A stretch of DNA of 64,000 nucleotides, taken from positions 124,001 to 188,000 of the forward strand of contig NZ_WKJI01000001.1 of assembly GCF_009674685.1 (NCBI RefSeq). Direction: 5' to 3'. Position numbers and translations under genes: made by a program. Of this stretch, positions 38,014 through 46,870 are shown piece by piece. The notes under the pieces were generated by a model that saw only the letters and a list, made by a program, of their open reading frames with translations, did not search any database and was not told the DNA's origin. Each line of letters opens with the position of its first letter. Position 1 is the first letter of the stretch. Source of the DNA: Pedobacter puniceum (GTDB lineage Bacteria; Bacteroidota; Bacteroidia; Sphingobacteriales; Sphingobacteriaceae).

Positions 38014-38436
38014 ATGGCCAACAGCTTCATAAAGCTTCTAGAAGAGAACGATTTAAAGAAAACCCAACCTCGCATAAGCGTATTAAAGGTTTTAACTTCT
38101 CGTGAGATGGCTACTTCGCAGCCAGATTTAGAGGCCATATTAGGTAAAGAAATAGATCGCGTTACGCTATACAGAACACTTAAAACTTTTGAAGACAAAG
38201 GTATCATCCACAAAGTAATTGATAATAAAGGTACAGCTAATTATGCCATGTGCTCACACCAGTGTAATGCAAAGGAACACCATCATGATCATTTGCATTT
38301 TAACTGTACCCAGTGCAATCATTTATATTGTTTAGATGAGTGTATTTTACCTCAAATTACAGTGCCAAGTGGATATCAAGTAGAAAATCTGCAATTGATA
38401 GCCACTGGTATTTGTGCTAAGTGCAAACAAGGCTAA
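38014..38436 (+). CDS. Fur-family metal-responsive regulator
   Basis: 140 residues. Winged helix (about 10-85; TQPRISVLKVLTS, DRVTLYRTLKTFEDKGIIHK), then the His-rich HHHDHLHF metal motif. Two Cys pairs, CTQC (about 99-102) and CAKC at the C-terminus, match the structural zinc site of Fur/Zur/PerR. The subtype (iron, zinc, peroxide) is not resolved; the NLQLIATGICAKC end is common in Zur-like Bacteroidota proteins. It is convergent with the Cys-rich four-helix protein gene (4-bp overlap of stops) and heads the metal region, so a role in metal homeostasis is likely. Confidence 0.9.
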   Translation: MANSFIKLLEENDLKKTQPRISVLKVLTSREMATSQPDLEAILGKEIDRVTLYRTLKTFEDKGIIHKVIDNKGTANYAMCSHQCNAKEHHHDHLHFNCTQCNHLYCLDECILPQITVPSGYQVENLQLIATGICAKCKQG

Positions 38437-38771
38437 GCAGCCATTTTTTCACATTCATCAGCACAAATTCGACAAGCTTCAGCACAAATGCGGCAATGCT
38501 CCATCCCCATTGCTGCGTGTTTTTCACATTCTTGAGCGCAGTTATCACAAGCATCGGCACAGATATTACAGATAATAGTGCTGTAAGAGCTGTTTAGGCT
38601 CATCAACTCTGCTGCCGACCGGCAAATAGCCGCACACTCTAAATCTGTTTGTATACAATTTCCCATCATATCTACATCTTCTTCTTTTAAGCATGAAGTA
38701 GCACATTGGTTGCAAGCAACAGCACAAGCCAAGCAGGCTTCTATGCATTTTCTATATTTTTCTGGTGTCAT
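38433..38771 (-). CDS. Four-helix bundle copper-binding (Csp/DUF326-like) protein
   Basis: 112 residues with about 20 Cys spaced as CxxxC and CxxC along helices (CIEACLACAVACNQCATSC, CNICADACDNCAQEC, CRICAEACRICADECEK). This pattern is that of copper storage proteins (Csp) with a DUF326 repeat: a four-helix bundle whose core Cys bind many Cu(I) ions. There is no signal peptide, so it would be cytosolic, like Csp3. It is divergent from the HYC_CC_PP-type gene that opens the metal operon. It is a good candidate for Cu(I) buffering. Confidence 0.88.
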   Translation of the reverse strand: MTPEKYRKCIEACLACAVACNQCATSCLKEEDVDMMGNCIQTDLECAAICRSAAELMSLNSSYSTIICNICADACDNCAQECEKHAAMGMEHCRICAEACRICADECEKMAA

Positions 38772-38875: not shown

Positions 38876-39259
38876 GTGAAAAAACTATTTACGCTTACGC
38901 TGATATTTCTTTACTCGCTTTCTGTTTTAGGAGTAGCGGTAAATAAATTTTATTGCTGTGGCGAGCTAGAATCTGTTACTTTCACAACCTCGGAGAAATA
39001 CTTAAAAGCCAGTAAGGCCAGTAAAGATGCTGGTTGCTGCCAAAATGAAGTAGAAACATTTAAAGTTAAAGACAGTCACTTATCAAGCTCTGCAAAATTT
39101 TTAGAGGCTAAAATTTTCGCTACGCTTTTATCACCAATCCCTGTATTTGATTTTAAAGTTGTAAACACTCAAGAAGTGGTATTGGCTTATCAAAGTCATG
39201 CACCCCCATTAGGAGCTGTATCTCCCATCTATCTACAAAACTGCAATTTCAGAATCTGA
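38876..39259 (+). CDS. HYC_CC_PP-family small exported protein
   Basis: 127 residues, GTG start. Signal peptide (about 1-20). It has the marks from which the family is named: a FYCCG motif near residue 26, a second CC pair (GCCQNE), and a late Pro pair in HAPPLGA. Here the first motif reads KFYCCGELE, with Lys in place of His. Proteins of this group in Bacteroidota often precede heavy-metal RND efflux genes, as here. A periplasmic metal-binding or sensing role is inferred from the Cys pairs and context. The next gene starts 159 bp downstream. Confidence 0.78.
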   Translation: MKKLFTLTLIFLYSLSVLGVAVNKFYCCGELESVTFTTSEKYLKASKASKDAGCCQNEVETFKVKDSHLSSSAKFLEAKIFATLLSPIPVFDFKVVNTQEVVLAYQSHAPPLGAVSPIYLQNCNFRI

Positions 39260-39418
39260 TCTTTCTTCCCTTTTGCTTTACACTTATGGAGGCTATTTAT
39301 TTTATAGTCTTCAAGTAAGTTTTGGTTTATTACCAATTTAAGCATATCCCCAACTTATACAATTCAATTTTTTGTTTACCAATAATATCCCTGTAAAGGG
39401 TTGATTTTAAATTTTTTA

Positions 39419-39673
39419 ATGATGAAAAAGATAGCTTTAATTTTAATGATTTTAGGTGTTATGGTTGTAACTGCATGTAGCAATAATACTAAAAGTAATG
39501 ATGCTGCCGCAGATAAAAACACTGTTTATACTTGCCCAATGGATCCAGAAGTAATTGCTAATGAGCCTGGTACATGTCCAAAATGTAAAATGGATTTAGT
39601 AGCTCAGGCTGATGTAGAAACTGATACCACACATATGCATACCGATACTACTCATCATAACCATAATCACTAA
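39419..39673 (+). CDS. Heavy-metal-binding-domain lipoprotein
   Basis: 84 residues. Lipoprotein signal with VTACSN (Cys about 17-20). It has one heavy-metal-binding domain (HMBD) of the pattern YTCPMDPEVIANEPGTCPKC, then KMDLV, in which Cys, Met and His hold Cu(I)/Ag(I). The C-terminus is His-rich (HMHTDTTHHNHNH). It is probably a periplasmic metal chaperone feeding the pump encoded 5 bp downstream. A TTG 18 bp upstream is in frame, but the ATGATG at 39419 precedes a proper signal peptide. The same domain recurs in both adaptor proteins of this operon. Confidence 0.88.
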   Translation: MMKKIALILMILGVMVVTACSNNTKSNDAAADKNTVYTCPMDPEVIANEPGTCPKCKMDLVAQADVETDTTHMHTDTTHHNHNH

Positions 39674-39678
39674 AAAAG

Positions 39679-40962
39679 ATGATACCAGCAATTATAGATT
39701 TTTCTTTAAAAAACAGGCTCTTCGTTTTACTGATAACGGCAGGTTTGTTTGGCTGGGGGATATATGCTGTACAAGAAAATCCGATAGATGCCATCCCTGA
39801 TTTATCAGAAAATCAGGTGATTGTATTTACCGAATGGATGGGTAGAAGTCCGCAAGTAATAGAAGACCAAATTACCTATCCTCTGGTAAGTAATTTACAA
39901 GGTATTCCTCAGGTTAAAGATGTTAGAGCAAGTTCTATGTTTGGGATGAGCTTTGTTTACATCATTTTTGATGATAAAACGGATATTTATTGGGCTCGTA
40001 CTCGGGTATTAGAGCGATTAAACTATGCACAGCGATTATTACCAGAAGGAGTTAGCCCAACACTAGGCCCTGATGGAACAGGTGTTGGTCATATATTTTG
40101 GTATACACTAGATGCCGGTAAAATGGACCTTGGCGAGCAACGGGCACTACAAGATTGGTATATCAAACTGGCTTTACAAACCGTACCTGGTGTTGCAGAA
40201 GTAGCCTCTTTTGGTGGTTTCGAGAAGCAATACCAATTGGTGATAGACCCCTTAAAATTACAGTTCTACAACCTTTCTTTAATGGATGTGATGAATAAGG
40301 TAAAGGCAAATAATAATGATGTTGGAGGGAGGAAGTTCGAGATGAGCGATATGGCTTACATCATTAGAGGTTTAGGTTATGTAAAGAATAAGCAGGATTT
40401 AGAGAACATCGCTATAGCCAATAACAAAGGTATCCCTGTAAGGGTAAAAGACATTGGTACAGTGCAAATGGGAGGCGATTTAAGACTCGGTATTTTTGAT
40501 GAAAATGGCGAGGGCGAAGCTGTTGGAGGTATTGTGGTGATGCGTTATGGAGAAAATGCCGATAAAGTTATTGCTGCTGTTAAAACCAAAATGGAAGAAG
40601 TAGAAAGGGGTTTGCCAAAGGGTGTGAAGTTTAATATTGCCTATGATAGAAGTTCTTTAATAGAAGCGGCTATTTATACCATCAAAGTAAAATTGTTAGA
40701 AGAAATTATAGTGGTGTGTATTATCGTTATTATTTTCTTGATGCATTGGAGAAGTGCTTTAAGTATTATTCTACAAATACCGGTAACTATCGCTCTTAGC
40801 TTTTTATTACTTAATGCTTTTGGTATTTCATCTAACATCATGTCTTTAACAGGTATTGCTTTGGCTATTGGTGTTATTGTGGATAATGGAATCATCATGT
40901 CTGAAAACGCTTATCGCCGATTGTCTGAATGGCAAAACAATCCAAAACATCAAAAATCATGA
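39679..40962 (+). CDS. cusA: CusA/CzcA-type heavy-metal RND efflux pump, N-terminal part (split gene)
   Basis: 427 residues: helix 1, the first periplasmic porter domain and helices 2-4 of an RND pump. Marks: NPIDAIPDLSENQVIVFTEW, DPLKLQFYNLSLMDV, and helix 4 with GVIVDNGIIMSENAYRRL. The frame then stops at TGA 40960 in the cytoplasmic loop after helix 4. The rest of the pump continues one frame away. Together the two parts have normal length (about 1075 residues) and no conserved segment is missing. One extra base (for example a sixth A in the run at 40952-40956) would join them as ...HQKIMIRF.... It is either a sequencing slip, a recent mutation, or a true split gene with ATGA stop/start overlap. 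The metal is Cu(I)/Ag(I) by context. Confidence 0.88.
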   Translation: MIPAIIDFSLKNRLFVLLITAGLFGWGIYAVQENPIDAIPDLSENQVIVFTEWMGRSPQVIEDQITYPLVSNLQGIPQVKDVRASSMFGMSFVYIIFDDKTDIYWARTRVLERLNYAQRLLPEGVSPTLGPDGTGVGHIFWYTLDAGKMDLGEQRALQDWYIKLALQTVPGVAEVASFGGFEKQYQLVIDPLKLQFYNLSLMDVMNKVKANNNDVGGRKFEMSDMAYIIRGLGYVKNKQDLENIAIANNKGIPVRVKDIGTVQMGGDLRLGIFDENGEGEAVGGIVVMRYGENADKVIAAVKTKMEEVERGLPKGVKFNIAYDRSSLIEAAIYTIKVKLLEEIIVVCIIVIIFLMHWRSALSIILQIPVTIALSFLLLNAFGISSNIMSLTGIALAIGVIVDNGIIMSENAYRRLSEWQNNPKHQKS

Positions 40963-42911
40963 TAAGATTCATCAAAAATATATTCAATAAGAAAAAGGAA
41001 GATTTAGGTTACACGCCTATTCCTGAAGCTACCCGCTTGCAAATTATTGCCGATGCTTGTAAGCAAGTATCAAGAGGGGTGTTTTTTTCTACCGTTATCA
41101 TCATCGCATCTTTTTTGCCCGTTTTTCTATTAACAGGACAAGAAGGGAAACTATTTGGCCCCTTAGCCTATACCAAAACTTTCATTTTAGTGATAGATGC
41201 TATTTTGGTGCTCACTTTAGCGCCGGTACTCATCTCTTATTTTATGAAAGGTAGGTTCAGAAGCGAAAATGAAAACCCGGTTAACAGGAAGTTAGAAGCT
41301 TGGTACGAACCCTTGATTACCAAGTGTATACACTGGCGAAAAACTACACTAGGTGTTAATATTCTGGCTTTATTAATTAGTGTGCCGATGTTATGGAGCT
41401 TAGGTAGAGAGTTTATGCCTCCGCTAGATGAAGGCTCTATTTTATTTATGCCTGTAACGCTACCTGATGTTTCTAATGGCGAAGCCAAACGTATCCTACA
41501 AGTTCAGGATAAGATTATCAAATCTGTGCCAGAGGTTAGCTATGTTTTAGGAAAAGCCGGAAGAGCCGAAACAGCAACAGATAATTCGCCTATCAGTATG
41601 ATAGAAACGATTATCCTACTTAAACCTAAACACGAATGGCGTTCTGGTATTACCAAAGATGATATCATCAACGAGTTGAATACGAAGTTGCAAATACCCG
41701 GAGTTACTAACGGTTGGACGCAGCCTATCATCAACCGTATCAATATGCTTTCTACAGGTATCAGAACAGATGTAGGTGTAAAAGTTTACGGTCAAAATTT
41801 AGATACTATTGATGCTTTCTCTCAAAAAATACGTAGCTATTTGCAAGGTATAGAAGGGGTTAAAGATTTATACGTTGAGCCTATTACTGGTGGTAAATAT
41901 ATTGATATAACCATTAAAAGGGATGAAATAAGCAGATACAATTTAAGTGTGGATGATGTAAATACCGTAGTTGAAAGTGCTTTGGGTGGTATGCAATTAA
42001 CAACTACTATTGAAGGCCGACAAAGATTTTCTGTAAATGCCCGTTATGGCCAAGATTTTAGAGATAACTTGCAAGATTTAAAACGTTTGCAAGTACAAAC
42101 CATGGATTTTGGTCCAATTCCTTTAGAAGCTGTAGCTGATATTGGGATTTCTGAAGGCCCACCCATGATTAATTCAGAAAATGCTTTACTACGCGGGACT
42201 GTTTTATTTAATGTAAGAGATAGAGATTTAGCAGGTACGGTAGAAGAAGCTCGCGAGAAGCTAGATGTCATGATAGGGCAATTACCTAAAGGTTATTTTA
42301 TAGAATGGAGTGGGCAGTATGAAAACCTTATCCGTAGCGAGCGTACCATGAAATTGATTATTCCTATCGTGTTAATCATCATCTTTTTATGTATGTATTT
42401 CGCTTTCCACTCGGTAAGAGAAGCGTTTTTTAGCTTGATATCTATTCCATTTGCCCTTATTGGTGGTGCTTTTATGGTTTATTTTTGGGGTGTTAATCTT
42501 TCTGTGGCGGTGGCCGTAGGTTTTATAGCACTTTTTGGTTTAGCAGTAGAAACAGGTATTGTGATGGTAATTTATCTGAATGATGCCATGCAGCAATTGG
42601 TTGCACTAAAAGGAAACTCTAGAGAAACCATTACCAAAGAAGATTTAAGAACTTACGTGATAGCTGGCGCAGCAAAACGCTTAAGACCAAAGCTCATGAC
42701 CGTTTGCGTTTCTCTGTTTGGTTTAATCCCCATCCTATGGAGCACTGGTGTAGGTAGCGATGTGATGATTCCTATTGTGCTACCTATGGTCGGTGGGGTG
42801 TTAACATCATCAACACATATATTATTAGTTACACCATTAATATTTCTGATGACTAAAGAGTACGAGTTGAAGAAGTATGGTAAAATAGAAGTTTTAGATG
42901 CTAAACACTAG
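40959..42911 (+). CDS. cusA: CusA/CzcA-type heavy-metal RND efflux pump, C-terminal part (split gene)
   Basis: 650 residues from the ATG that overlaps the upstream stop (ATGA); an ATG at 40929 is also in frame. It holds helices 5-12 and the second porter domain. GQEGKLFGPLAYTKT, EFMPPLDEGSILFMP, LGKAGRAETATDNSP with MIET (a Met-Glu segment near the CusA Met sites) and EWSGQYENLIRSERTM are all typical. The last helices are complete and it ends LDAKH. It begins in the loop between helices 4 and 5, which is variable in this family, so the break does not remove a conserved element. Whether a separate C-terminal half is made depends on coupled restart at the ATGA. Confidence 0.88.
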   Translation: MIRFIKNIFNKKKEDLGYTPIPEATRLQIIADACKQVSRGVFFSTVIIIASFLPVFLLTGQEGKLFGPLAYTKTFILVIDAILVLTLAPVLISYFMKGRFRSENENPVNRKLEAWYEPLITKCIHWRKTTLGVNILALLISVPMLWSLGREFMPPLDEGSILFMPVTLPDVSNGEAKRILQVQDKIIKSVPEVSYVLGKAGRAETATDNSPISMIETIILLKPKHEWRSGITKDDIINELNTKLQIPGVTNGWTQPIINRINMLSTGIRTDVGVKVYGQNLDTIDAFSQKIRSYLQGIEGVKDLYVEPITGGKYIDITIKRDEISRYNLSVDDVNTVVESALGGMQLTTTIEGRQRFSVNARYGQDFRDNLQDLKRLQVQTMDFGPIPLEAVADIGISEGPPMINSENALLRGTVLFNVRDRDLAGTVEEAREKLDVMIGQLPKGYFIEWSGQYENLIRSERTMKLIIPIVLIIIFLCMYFAFHSVREAFFSLISIPFALIGGAFMVYFWGVNLSVAVAVGFIALFGLAVETGIVMVIYLNDAMQQLVALKGNSRETITKEDLRTYVIAGAAKRLRPKLMTVCVSLFGLIPILWSTGVGSDVMIPIVLPMVGGVLTSSTHILLVTPLIFLMTKEYELKKYGKIEVLDAKH

Positions 42912-42922
42912 ATTTTAATAAG

Positions 42923-44173
42923 ATGAAAACAAGATTAATGATGCTAGTGCTGCTTTTACAGGTGATTGTTGTAAAAGCACAAGAAAAGTTAGACTTAGCA
43001 ACTATTTTGAAGCAGATAGAGCAGCAAAACCCACAGTTGAAGATGTACGATGCCGAAATCAAATCTATGGATGAGATGGCAAAAGGCGCTAAAGATTGGG
43101 AAAGTCCGCAGTTAGGAACCGGCTTATGGATGGTGCCTTACAATACTTCTATGTGGAGAAGAGGAATGGATGGAAGCACAGGAATGGGCCAATATGCCAT
43201 CAGTTTAGAGCAAATGTTTCCTAATAAAAGTAACCTTAACGCCAATGCAAAACTGATGGAAACAGCATCTTCTGTAGAGCTAGAAAACAAAAAAGGTGTT
43301 GCTTTTAATTTGTTTAGCTTGGCAAAGCAAAACTTTGTGGAGTGGAAATTAGCAAAAGAAAAAGCTAAGGTTCTGGAGCAAAATCAGCAATTGCTAAGCT
43401 TTATGATTAGGAGTACCGAAATCAGATATAAAAATGGTTTAGAAAAGTTAAATACTTATTATAAAGCAAAAGCCGCTTTGGCCAATATAGAAAATATGCA
43501 GTTGATGTTGCAGAACGATATCAAGCAGAATAGAATTATGCTGAACACCTTAATGAACCGCAATAAGCTATCTAATTTTGATATCGATACGGTTTATCCT
43601 CAAAAGCAATATCAATCATCCCTTTATGATAGCACAACCTTAGCCAACCATAGAAGTGATATCAAAGCTATAGAGCAAAGTATTGTATTGAATGGTTTAG
43701 AGCAAGCCGTAGAGAAAAGTATGTTGAAGCCCGAGTTTGGTGTACGCTACGAACATATGTTTGGTTTTGGCGGCATGCCTATGCAATATTCTTTAATGGG
43801 GATGATTAAAATACCTGTGGCTTGGTCTACCAAATCTGAAAGGGCAAATATTGAAGGTTTAAAATGGCGCTCTGAGGCTTTAAGGCAAGAAAAAGATATG
43901 CTTTTAAGTGAGATAAGAGGAAGAGCTTTTGGAAAAGTAAACGATTTGCAAACCAAAGAAAAACAGCTTAAACTTTTTGAACAGCAAATAATTCCTGCTT
44001 TAAAGAAAAACTACCAAAGTTTACAACTGGCTTATGAGCAAAATACAGCAGAACTATTTATGTTGTTTGATGCCTGGGAAAGCTTAAACATGACTCAGCT
44101 TAACTATATCGATTTGCAAAAGGAGTACCTCATGATGCAAATAGAGTTAGATAGGATTTTAGAGTTAAAATAA
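42923..44173 (+). CDS. TolC-family outer-membrane efflux channel (CusC-like)
   Basis: 416 residues. Signal peptide 1-19 (ends VKA). Two repeats of the long coiled-coil hairpins of outer-membrane efflux proteins are visible (about 20-210 and 215-415), with Ser/Gln/Asn/Leu-rich heptads such as EQMFPNKSNLNANAKLMETA. It would form the outer-membrane exit duct for the RND pump, starting 11 bp after it. It lacks a lipobox, unlike E. coli CusC. Met-rich segments (GTGLWMVPYNTSMWRRGMDG, FGFGGMPMQYSLMGM) might interact with metal, which is speculative. Confidence 0.9.
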   Translation: MKTRLMMLVLLLQVIVVKAQEKLDLATILKQIEQQNPQLKMYDAEIKSMDEMAKGAKDWESPQLGTGLWMVPYNTSMWRRGMDGSTGMGQYAISLEQMFPNKSNLNANAKLMETASSVELENKKGVAFNLFSLAKQNFVEWKLAKEKAKVLEQNQQLLSFMIRSTEIRYKNGLEKLNTYYKAKAALANIENMQLMLQNDIKQNRIMLNTLMNRNKLSNFDIDTVYPQKQYQSSLYDSTTLANHRSDIKAIEQSIVLNGLEQAVEKSMLKPEFGVRYEHMFGFGGMPMQYSLMGMIKIPVAWSTKSERANIEGLKWRSEALRQEKDMLLSEIRGRAFGKVNDLQTKEKQLKLFEQQIIPALKKNYQSLQLAYEQNTAELFMLFDAWESLNMTQLNYIDLQKEYLMMQIELDRILELK

Positions 44174-44185
44174 ACCATTAAACAT

Positions 44186-45430
44186 ATGAAAGATTTTAAA
44201 ATGGTGAATTTAAAAGATAAAAAAGGTGTTTATGTGTTGATGATTTTGCTTTTAGCATTTTTTTCTTCTTGTGAATTTTTTGCAGATAAAAAAGCACATG
44301 AACATACCACGCAATATACTTGCCCTATGCATCCAGAAATTATTGAGGATGAATTTGGAAGTTGCCCAATTTGCAAAATGGATTTGGTGCCTAAACTTAC
44401 CGAGGCAGAGCAGGTAAAAGATGTAAGTTTAGAAAGCTTATTACAGCCTACCAATAATTTGGTAGTTTCTAAAATAGGCTTAACTAAAATCAGCGAAAGT
44501 GAAGAAGAAATAACTATTGATGCTTTAGGCTTTACAGCTTATAATGATAATTATACAGGTACCGTAGCAGCAAGATTTGGCGGTAGAATTGAGAAAATGT
44601 ATTTGAAATATAATTATCAAGATGTAAATAATGGGCAAAAAGTACTAGAACTTTACAGTCCGGAGATGCTTACCGCACAAGAAGAACTACTATTCTTAGT
44701 GAAAAATGATGCCGGAAATGATATCTTAATTCAAGCTGCTAAACAAAAATTACAGCTATTAGGTGTATCTGCACAGCAAATTAATCAAATCATTAAAACA
44801 AAGAAAAGCAATTTTACATTGCCGGTTTATAGTTCTTATACAGGGCATATCCATGATGTTAATGAGGAAGAGCAAGGTATGCAGCTTAATATGAATACCA
44901 CTCAGCTACAGCTTAGAGAGGGTATGTATGTTAATAAAGGAGATATACTTTTTAAGGTTTATAATCCAGAGCATTTATGGGTGTTGGTTGATGTTTATAC
45001 GCATCAGCAAAAGATGGTGAAAGTAGGTTCGCAAGTAAGCCTCACGGTAGAAACACATCCTGATAAGGAAATCCAAGCTAAGATAAATTTTATTGAGCCC
45101 TTTTTTAGAGAAGGAGCTAAAACTATCAAAGCGAGGATAAATATCGATAACCCTAATCAACATTTACCTGTAGGAGCGCAGGTGAAGGCTAAAATTAAAG
45201 CAGAAACTTTATCTGGTAATTGGTTGCCAGAAAGTGCTGTGATTAGTTTAGGGCTACATGAGGTTGTAATGTTGAAAACAGCCGCTGGTTTTAAAGTGCA
45301 TCAAGTGGAAACTGGTTATCGTGGGAATGCTAAAGTTCAGGTTTTAAAAGGCTTAAGTGCTAAGGATGAGGTAGCAGTAAATGCTCAATATTTAATAGAT
45401 AGTGAAAGTTTTATCGCAATTAAACCATAA
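44186..45430 (+). CDS. RND periplasmic adaptor (CusB-like) with N-terminal heavy-metal-binding domain
   Basis: 414 residues. Lipoprotein signal (FFSSC, Cys about 29), an HMBD (YTCPMHPEII, then GSCPICKMDLV), and the MFP adaptor body: barrel-sandwich hybrid, a helical hairpin (YSPEMLTAQEELLFLVKN), a lipoyl-like part (MYVNKGDILFKVYNPEHLWV) and a membrane-proximal domain. It links the inner-membrane pump to the TolC-type channel. The start could also be MVNLKDKKG, 15 bp downstream, which gives a shorter signal peptide. It is followed after 1 bp by a second adaptor gene, so the pump may use two different adaptors. Confidence 0.9.
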   Translation: MKDFKMVNLKDKKGVYVLMILLLAFFSSCEFFADKKAHEHTTQYTCPMHPEIIEDEFGSCPICKMDLVPKLTEAEQVKDVSLESLLQPTNNLVVSKIGLTKISESEEEITIDALGFTAYNDNYTGTVAARFGGRIEKMYLKYNYQDVNNGQKVLELYSPEMLTAQEELLFLVKNDAGNDILIQAAKQKLQLLGVSAQQINQIIKTKKSNFTLPVYSSYTGHIHDVNEEEQGMQLNMNTTQLQLREGMYVNKGDILFKVYNPEHLWVLVDVYTHQQKMVKVGSQVSLTVETHPDKEIQAKINFIEPFFREGAKTIKARINIDNPNQHLPVGAQVKAKIKAETLSGNWLPESAVISLGLHEVVMLKTAAGFKVHQVETGYRGNAKVQVLKGLSAKDEVAVNAQYLIDSESFIAIKP

Positions 45431-45431
45431 G

Positions 45432-46604
45432 ATGAAAATATTAAAATTGATTTCGCTAGCTGTTTTGCTTGTGGTAAATGCCTGTAGTGGCGATAAAAAA
45501 ACTACAGCAGACAGCAATACTTATTATACCTGCTCTATGCATCCGCAGATTATGGAGCCAGAACCTGGTACTTGTGCCATTTGTAAAATGGATTTAATTG
45601 CAGTACAAAAGAATTCAAGTAAGAAAGTGAACGAGTTGATGTTGAGCGACCAACAAATTCAGTTGGGAAATATCCAAACCGATACTGTTAAAGCTGGTGG
45701 CGTTAATGCAGAGTTTACAGTTACTGCAACTTTAAGTACCGACGAAAATTTACAAGAAGCAATAAGTGCCAGAGTTGGAGGTAGGATAGAACGTTTGTAT
45801 GTTAAGAATATGGGCGATTTTGTTTCTGCTGGATCTAAATTAATGGATATTTATAGTGAAGAGTTAAATAGTGCTAAACAAGAATATCTGGCAGCTTTAG
45901 AGAAGCAACAAGAGTTTAAAAATGGCTTGATAGATTATGGTCGTTTGTTGCAAAGCGCAAAGCAAAAACTAGTACTATGGGGGATGACAGAGCAACAGAT
46001 TAAAACCTTGGCCCAACAAAAGAAGATAGATAAGTTTACTTCTTTTTATAGTAAAAAATCAGGCTACATTACAGAGCTTATGGTAACAGAGGGAGATTAT
46101 GTAATGGAAGGCTCTTTGATTTTGAAACTAGCAGATTTATCTAATTTATGGGCAGAAGCTCAATTATATTCATCACAATTAGCACAAGTTAATTTACAAC
46201 AAGCAGTAAAAGTGAATATTCCTGATTTTCCTGAAAAAGAAATTATAGGTCGTGTTGATTTTCAAAACCCAGAAATTAGTGCCAGTAGCAGGGTGAATTT
46301 GATTAGGATTAATGTAGCTAACAAAGATTTGCAACTGAAACCAGGAATGCTAGCTTATGTAAAGTTCAAAGGGAAAGCATCAGCAAATATATCAGTACCT
46401 ATAAAAGCTGTGATAAGAAACGGTAAAACAAATGTAGTTTGGTTAAAAACCGGAAAAAACACTTATACCCAAAAAGAAGTAATTACCGGAGTAGAAAACA
46501 ATAGTCAGATTGAAATTAAAGAAGGCCTAGAAATAGGCGATTTGCTAGTTACCTCTGGTGCTTATTTATTAAACAGCGAATTAGAATTTAAACAAGGGAG
46601 TTAG
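45432..46604 (+). CDS. Second RND periplasmic adaptor with heavy-metal-binding domain
   Basis: 390 residues. I use the ATG at 45432 (MKILKLISLAVLLVVNACSG, a clean lipoprotein signal); an ATG at 45402 inside the previous gene lacks a good signal. The HMBD (YTCSMHPQIMEPEPGTCAIC) precedes an MFP adaptor domain with the hairpin IYSEELNSAKQEYLAALEKQ and ADLSNLWAEAQLYSSQLAQV. It is a diverged paralog of the upstream adaptor. Two adaptors could form a mixed ring on the RND trimer, in place of the usual six copies of one protein. A terminator follows directly. Confidence 0.9.
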   Translation: MKILKLISLAVLLVVNACSGDKKTTADSNTYYTCSMHPQIMEPEPGTCAICKMDLIAVQKNSSKKVNELMLSDQQIQLGNIQTDTVKAGGVNAEFTVTATLSTDENLQEAISARVGGRIERLYVKNMGDFVSAGSKLMDIYSEELNSAKQEYLAALEKQQEFKNGLIDYGRLLQSAKQKLVLWGMTEQQIKTLAQQKKIDKFTSFYSKKSGYITELMVTEGDYVMEGSLILKLADLSNLWAEAQLYSSQLAQVNLQQAVKVNIPDFPEKEIIGRVDFQNPEISASSRVNLIRINVANKDLQLKPGMLAYVKFKGKASANISVPIKAVIRNGKTNVVWLKTGKNTYTQKEVITGVENNSQIEIKEGLEIGDLLVTSGAYLLNSELEFKQGS

Positions 46605-46617
46605 CTTAGGCTAACTC
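46598..46617 (+). terminator. Terminator of the metal efflux operon
   Basis: GAGTTAGC-TTAG-GCTAACTC followed by TTTTG. The left arm includes the stop codon of the second adaptor gene. Confidence 0.75.
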
Positions 46618-46870
46618 TTTTGCTTTTATATCTATCTCTTTTATCCTATCTTCTTAAATAGGATTCGTATTTATGATTCTTTAATTGGTAAGTTCTTGAT
46701 GATAAAGATGTTAAAATGAGCTAATCCTTTGCTAAGATGACTGATTTTTTTCGAGATAATATGTCTCATATTTGAGAAAAGCCGAACCAAATTACATTTC
46801 ATTTCTCCTAAATTAAGACACTCTTGATATGTGTTTGATGGCTGTTATTAGCAAACCAATTAATCATTAT

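Follow-up and report, generated by a model that had tools for sequence, protein, structure and literature searches.

SecD/SecF, a member of the RND superfamily, is split or fused depending on the bacterium, and MdtBC is a functional RND pump that requires two gene products. The protomer of RND pumps is generally regarded as a single chain, as it is in E. coli CusA, and a single polypeptide of about 1000-1100 aa is a trait of the TIGR00914 (CusA/CzcA) family. Here, we analysed a CusA-type gene of Pedobacter puniceum that lacks this trait, as its product is encoded by two ORFs; the gene lies in a stretch of 64,000 nucleotides (contig NZ_WKJI01000001.1, positions 124,001 to 188,000; hereafter, the window, in whose own numbering all coordinates are given). 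The locus most probably represents a natural two-chain HME-RND pump, in which two separately translated, coupled half-pumps would form one protomer and three such pairs a 3+3-chain trimer.

The two-gene arrangement is already visible in databases: RefSeq annotates the halves as separate 'efflux RND transporter permease subunit' genes on plasmids of Haliscomenobacter, Hymenobacter and Mucilaginibacter. No description of a split CusA or RND pump was found in the open-access full-text literature, and an earlier account in subscription papers is possible. In the GeneTack survey of frame transitions, a MATE efflux cluster was placed under translational coupling, and the term 'RND' is absent from the main text (PMC3711429).

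A CusA-type pump divided between two adjacent ORFs

The earlier note had read the locus as a pump gene split into two ORFs by an ATGA overlap, with the break in the cytoplasmic TM4-TM5 loop and with halves that add up to a pump of normal length. The ORF coordinates (Table 1) confirmed the split, and alignments to TIGR00914 and to E. coli CusA bore out both the position of the break and the completeness of the sum. The N-half, whose frame closes with TGA, spans positions 1-428 of the NCBIfam profile TIGR00914, 1-422 of PF00873 and 8-431 of the E. coli CusA chain, while the C-half, which runs from its own ATG to a TAG, spans 430-1037, 419-1019 and 438-1042, respectively. The two are consecutive parts of a single TIGR00914 CusA/CzcA pump, with core residues neither lost nor doubled. 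Alone, they score 485 and 611 bits against a model of length 1051 with a cut-off of 701 bits; each falls below the cut-off because each is a part of a family protein.

Table 1. Features of the split pump locus and its surroundings (window coordinates)
Feature	Coordinates	Strand	Details
Csp1-type four-helix copper storage protein	38433..38771	-	just 5' of the pump operon
HYC_CC_PP family protein	38876..39259	+	just 5' of the pump operon
Small lipoprotein-like protein with heavy-metal-binding domain (HMBD)	39401..39673	+	PF19335; first gene of the putative operon
N-half, CusA-type RND pump	39679..40962	+	427 aa; TM1, first periplasmic domain, TM2-TM4
Alternative upstream C-frame start region	40929..40958	+	open C-frame; ATG at 40929; 34-nt overlap
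ATGA, C-half start overlapping N-half stop	40959..40962	+	seen in the sequence; identical in L010-L012
C-half of the pump	40959..42911	+	650 aa; basic N-terminal leader, TM5-TM12, second periplasmic domain
TolC-family outer membrane channel	42923..44173	+	PF02321
CusB-type periplasmic adaptor 1 (with HMBD)	44186..45430	+	PF16576, PF19335; NF007303
CusB-type periplasmic adaptor 2 (with HMBD)	45402..46604	+	PF16576, PF19335; TIGR01730
Terminator-like hairpin, putative operon end	46593..46622	+	13-pair stem, then T-rich tail

The more upstream ATG of the C-frame is probably not used as a start, judging from its distribution: it is present only in the closest relatives, and the next relative (L043) has the -4 ATG alone. 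The ATG within the ATGA was taken as the C-half start because the leaders of relatives align there.

Models predicted for the separate halves were of moderate confidence, as expected for halves modelled without their partner, and were used for helix counts and fold matches, not for interface claims. The N-half model (mean pLDDT 67.0) has four TM helices, and its best PDB matches are CusBA and CusA; in the C-half model (mean pLDDT 65.6), a short leader helix of low confidence precedes helices that agree with the expected TM5-TM12.

The proton-relay residues that mark HME-RND pumps are all present in the window, with the equivalent of D405 (TM4) in the N-half and those of E939 and K984 in the C-half. 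The C-half also carries the equivalents of M573, M623 and M672, the three-methionine metal site of the Cu(I)/Ag(I) subgroup. The D405 and the three methionine equivalents are kept in all 125 of 125 split loci, the E939 equivalent in 84 of 86 and the K984 equivalent in 79 of 85 of those covering the position, the remainder being mostly truncated rows. As the relay is divided over two chains, a single half would not be expected to act as a CusA-type transporter by itself.

Putative operon and copper-related neighbourhood

The putative operon runs in the order HMBD protein, N-half, C-half, TolC, CusB, CusB. Our scan of the operon region found no terminator-like hairpin at the N/C junction, only the one at the putative operon end, and promoter-like sites in the region, including between the halves, did not exceed those in shuffled sequences. 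An operon with a CusB adaptor and a TolC-type channel is a further mark of the Cu(I)/Ag(I) subgroup, and here a TolC and two CusB-type adaptors lie directly downstream. Together with the methionine site, this suggests that the split pump would have a Cu(I)/Ag(I)-type metal specificity. The gene order matches in loci L196 and L198 and, as far as its sequence stretch extends, in L197.

The two successive adaptors (44186-46604), each with an HMBD, overlap by 29 nt and share one TolC; this double arrangement recurs on Haliscomenobacter and Mucilaginibacter plasmids. The Csp1-type and HYC_CC_PP genes beside the pump operon fit a copper-handling island. The source genome also has two further CusA-like pumps, L002 (C3) and L003 (C1), single ORFs of 1445 and 1478 aa that are continuous at the TM4-TM5 loop and whose C-terminus is fused to an outer-membrane-channel (OEP) domain. 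Thus, in one genome, one pump is split, while two others are joined to their own channel.

Distribution and history of the split

The family scan covered 301 genomes and yielded 111 N-half matches at an identity of at least 60%, of which 108 are split at the TM4-TM5 loop (open frames of 422-475 aa) and three are continuous (1051-1067 aa). A search with the C-half in the same 301 genomes gave 112 places, of which all but one, located in the fragmented genome G159, adjoin an N-half; the pairing was made by reading both match tables. In the phylum-wide sample there were 29 split matches, and the remoter homologues of other lineages were continuous, at about 1050-1160 aa, save for a few cut at contig ends. 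Both scans scored the N-half regardless of continuation into a longer frame, and query-driven sampling of loci could under-represent fused relatives. Recurring in more than 100 genomes, the break is far beyond chance. The earlier note's expectation that a natural split would be unusual holds for RND pumps in general; in the present Bacteroidota clade, by contrast, the split is the rule.

Split pumps occur in Pedobacter, Mucilaginibacter, Sphingobacterium, Chitinophaga, Niastella, Chryseobacterium, Kaistella and Flavobacterium, and also on plasmids of Haliscomenobacter, Hymenobacter and Mucilaginibacter with matching gene order. The C-half of one locus (L029, in G024) lies in more than one frame and looks damaged, whether through decay of this copy or through an error in sequencing.

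Trees were built with FastTree (139 rows) and IQ-TREE (69 rows), and both require five state changes. Rooted on fused homologues and outgroups, these fit one ancient fission that would have been followed by four re-fusions: in one genus of the family (three genomes, L176-L178), in Flavihumibacter profundi (L142), in a Chitinophagaceae MAG (L118) and in G047 (L193). In L142, the re-fused loop (HLSDWQAANTNGNNYRIPGAVRMDLVRKA) combines the N-tail SDWQ with the C-half motif YRIP..RM of split relatives and has no basic start, which is the composition expected for fusion from a split ancestor.

Separate trees of the N- and C-halves give essentially the same clades, and their comparison revealed no clear swap of halves between clades. 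These trees bear on an alternative hypothesis, in which the two halves do different jobs or one of them joins a half of some other pump, the split then serving to exchange subunits. In its favour, two or three split pumps are present in some genomes (e.g., G506, G612 and G151); however, the halves are adjacent and paired, their trees agree in essentially all clades, and each is without a part of the proton relay. We therefore consider this alternative very unlikely, and the two-chain protomer built from neighbouring halves remains the preferred reading.

Two genes rather than frameshifting

Another alternative is that both ORFs yield one protein, through a programmed -1 frameshift or through slippage within the A-rich stretch. 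In the window, the C-frame is indeed -1 relative to the N-frame, and there are A runs of 4, 4 and 5. However, no X_XXY_YYZ slippery heptamer in frame was found in the window or in L096, L097 and L011, and only 16 of 154 split loci have any such heptamer within the last 120 nt. Across 131 distinct split loci, the distance from N-stop to C-start lies between -40 and +952 nt and all three frames occur, with the -4 (ATGA) overlap in 41 of the loci and spacings of +1, +2 or +4 in 12 to 16 loci each. Relative to the N-frame, the C-frame is shifted by -1 or +1, or is unshifted but separated by a stop codon, so that relatives would need -1 shifts, +1 shifts or stop readthrough. In several loci the halves lie 100-950 nt apart, and in two of these a whole gene stands between them: a 23S_rRNA_IVP (23S rRNA intervening-sequence-type, S23-like) gene, along with repeats, in the 952-nt gap of L194 (G012), and a methyltransferase gene in the 620-nt gap of L084 (G727). 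Moreover, the C-halves begin at an ATG of their own and bear a new leader.

Thus, neither a conserved slippery site nor a conserved frame relation was found, and the variable spacing and frames together with the unrelated genes between the halves exclude conserved frameshifting as a general mechanism; the chance that it operates at the locus itself appears very small. The genuine two-piece pump, which the earlier note had offered with either coupled restart or slippage, stands with respect to separate or coupled initiation and not with respect to slippage. Independent or coupled initiation is supported as the likely mechanism, and the spacing of the ATGA suggests stop-start coupling in the window. 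Shine-Dalgarno-like motifs precede the C-half in 12 of 154 loci; such motifs are usually rare in Bacteroidota.

With regard to the two intervening genes, that of L194 is flanked by short ACCGATTACCGA-like repeats and seems to be a repeat-borne insertion that the junction has tolerated, and the methyltransferase-like frame of L084 has no obvious ATG near its start.

The loop and the leader at the break

Fused outgroups have 21-24 aa between the end of TM4 and the lead-in of TM5, and this loop carries a net charge of -1 to -2. For split pumps, the median length is 14 aa for the N-half tail and 27 aa for the C-half leader, and the median sum of the two is 42 aa. The leader is basic, with a mean net charge of +2.7 over its first 12 aa, and typically starts with MKKIFKR, MKNIFKK or MTNWFKRNKDPL. 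By the positive-inside rule, such a leader would keep the new N-terminus cytoplasmic. A Mucilaginibacter-type clade is without it (MTTAERIKII start), which indicates that a basic leader is not universally needed. It may thus be helpful without being essential.

Integrity of the junction in close relatives

The earlier note had also raised a recent inactivating mutation, and a frame change within a conserved gene does normally point to a decaying pseudogene. Nevertheless, the functional residues are all conserved, the split is ancient and common to a whole deep clade, and pairwise dN/dS among close relatives is low on either side of the break, at 0.015-0.035 in the N-half and 0.025-0.043 in the C-half. 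Both halves are under strong purifying selection, with no relaxation 3' of the putative lesion, and the pseudogene hypothesis is highly improbable.

A sequencing or assembly error, in which one A is missing from the A-rich stretch and the gene is really a single ORF, has practically no credibility, as the junction, including the ATGA, aligns indel-free and with no added A in three other, independent assemblies of the same genus (90-97% nucleotide identity), and as the split recurs in the more than 100 genomes noted above, single-contig ones among them.

A proposed course of events

Taken together, these observations are best accommodated by the natural two-chain pump. A CusA-type gene would have been cut once in the TM4-TM5 loop, early in a Bacteroidota lineage, and its halves would have been inherited as adjacent genes of one operon, each with its own start codon and, in the window, with ATGA stop-start coupling. 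The C-half would have acquired a short, mostly basic leader that holds its N-terminus in the cytoplasm, allowing TM5-TM12 to insert correctly. One N-half and one C-half would then make up a protomer, and three pairs a trimer that would export Cu(I)/Ag(I)-type ions via the usual proton relay, together with TolC and CusB. Expression of the half-pumps and their 3+3 assembly are read here from sequence and are proposed on that basis.

If the protomer is indeed made of two chains, folding, trimer assembly and proton coupling would all be possible without the TM4-TM5 link, and the split pump is a ready-made split-protein system with which this can be tested. The four re-fusions would serve as natural controls, in which the same pump can be compared in its one-chain and its two-chain form. 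A broader view is that two-chain RND pumps are a distinct natural architecture, whose independent halves can be regulated, assembled stepwise or exchanged among the several split pumps of a cell, the split being adaptive and not a neutral accident; we regard this as a rather unlikely extension of the two-chain reading. As a caution for annotation, the halves fall under the CusA/CzcA cut-off and can be filed as incomplete or frameshifted genes.

Comparison with known systems

By homology, residues and operon, the split pump is an HME-RND pump, and it departs from that family in the single-chain feature. With E. coli CusA (HME-RND; PDB 3k07, 3ne5 and 3t51) it shares the family and the metal-binding and proton-relay residues, and its halves cover the full chain; the difference lies in the number of polypeptides, one in CusA and two here, cut in the TM4-TM5 loop. 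The OEP-fused pumps of the source genome are likewise CusA-like, but are single ORFs. MdtB and MdtC are each complete RND proteins, whereas each gene of the split pump gives a fragment. SecD/SecF offers the likeness of an RND-fold membrane protein that exists in a two-gene and in a fused, one-gene form; however, it is divided between the two 6-TM repeats, while the split pump is cut inside the first repeat (4+8 TM), and SecDF, unlike the proposed split pump, is not a metal efflux trimer. A large natural two-chain family cut inside the first 6-TM repeat would thus stand in contrast to the single-chain protomers as which RND pumps are treated.
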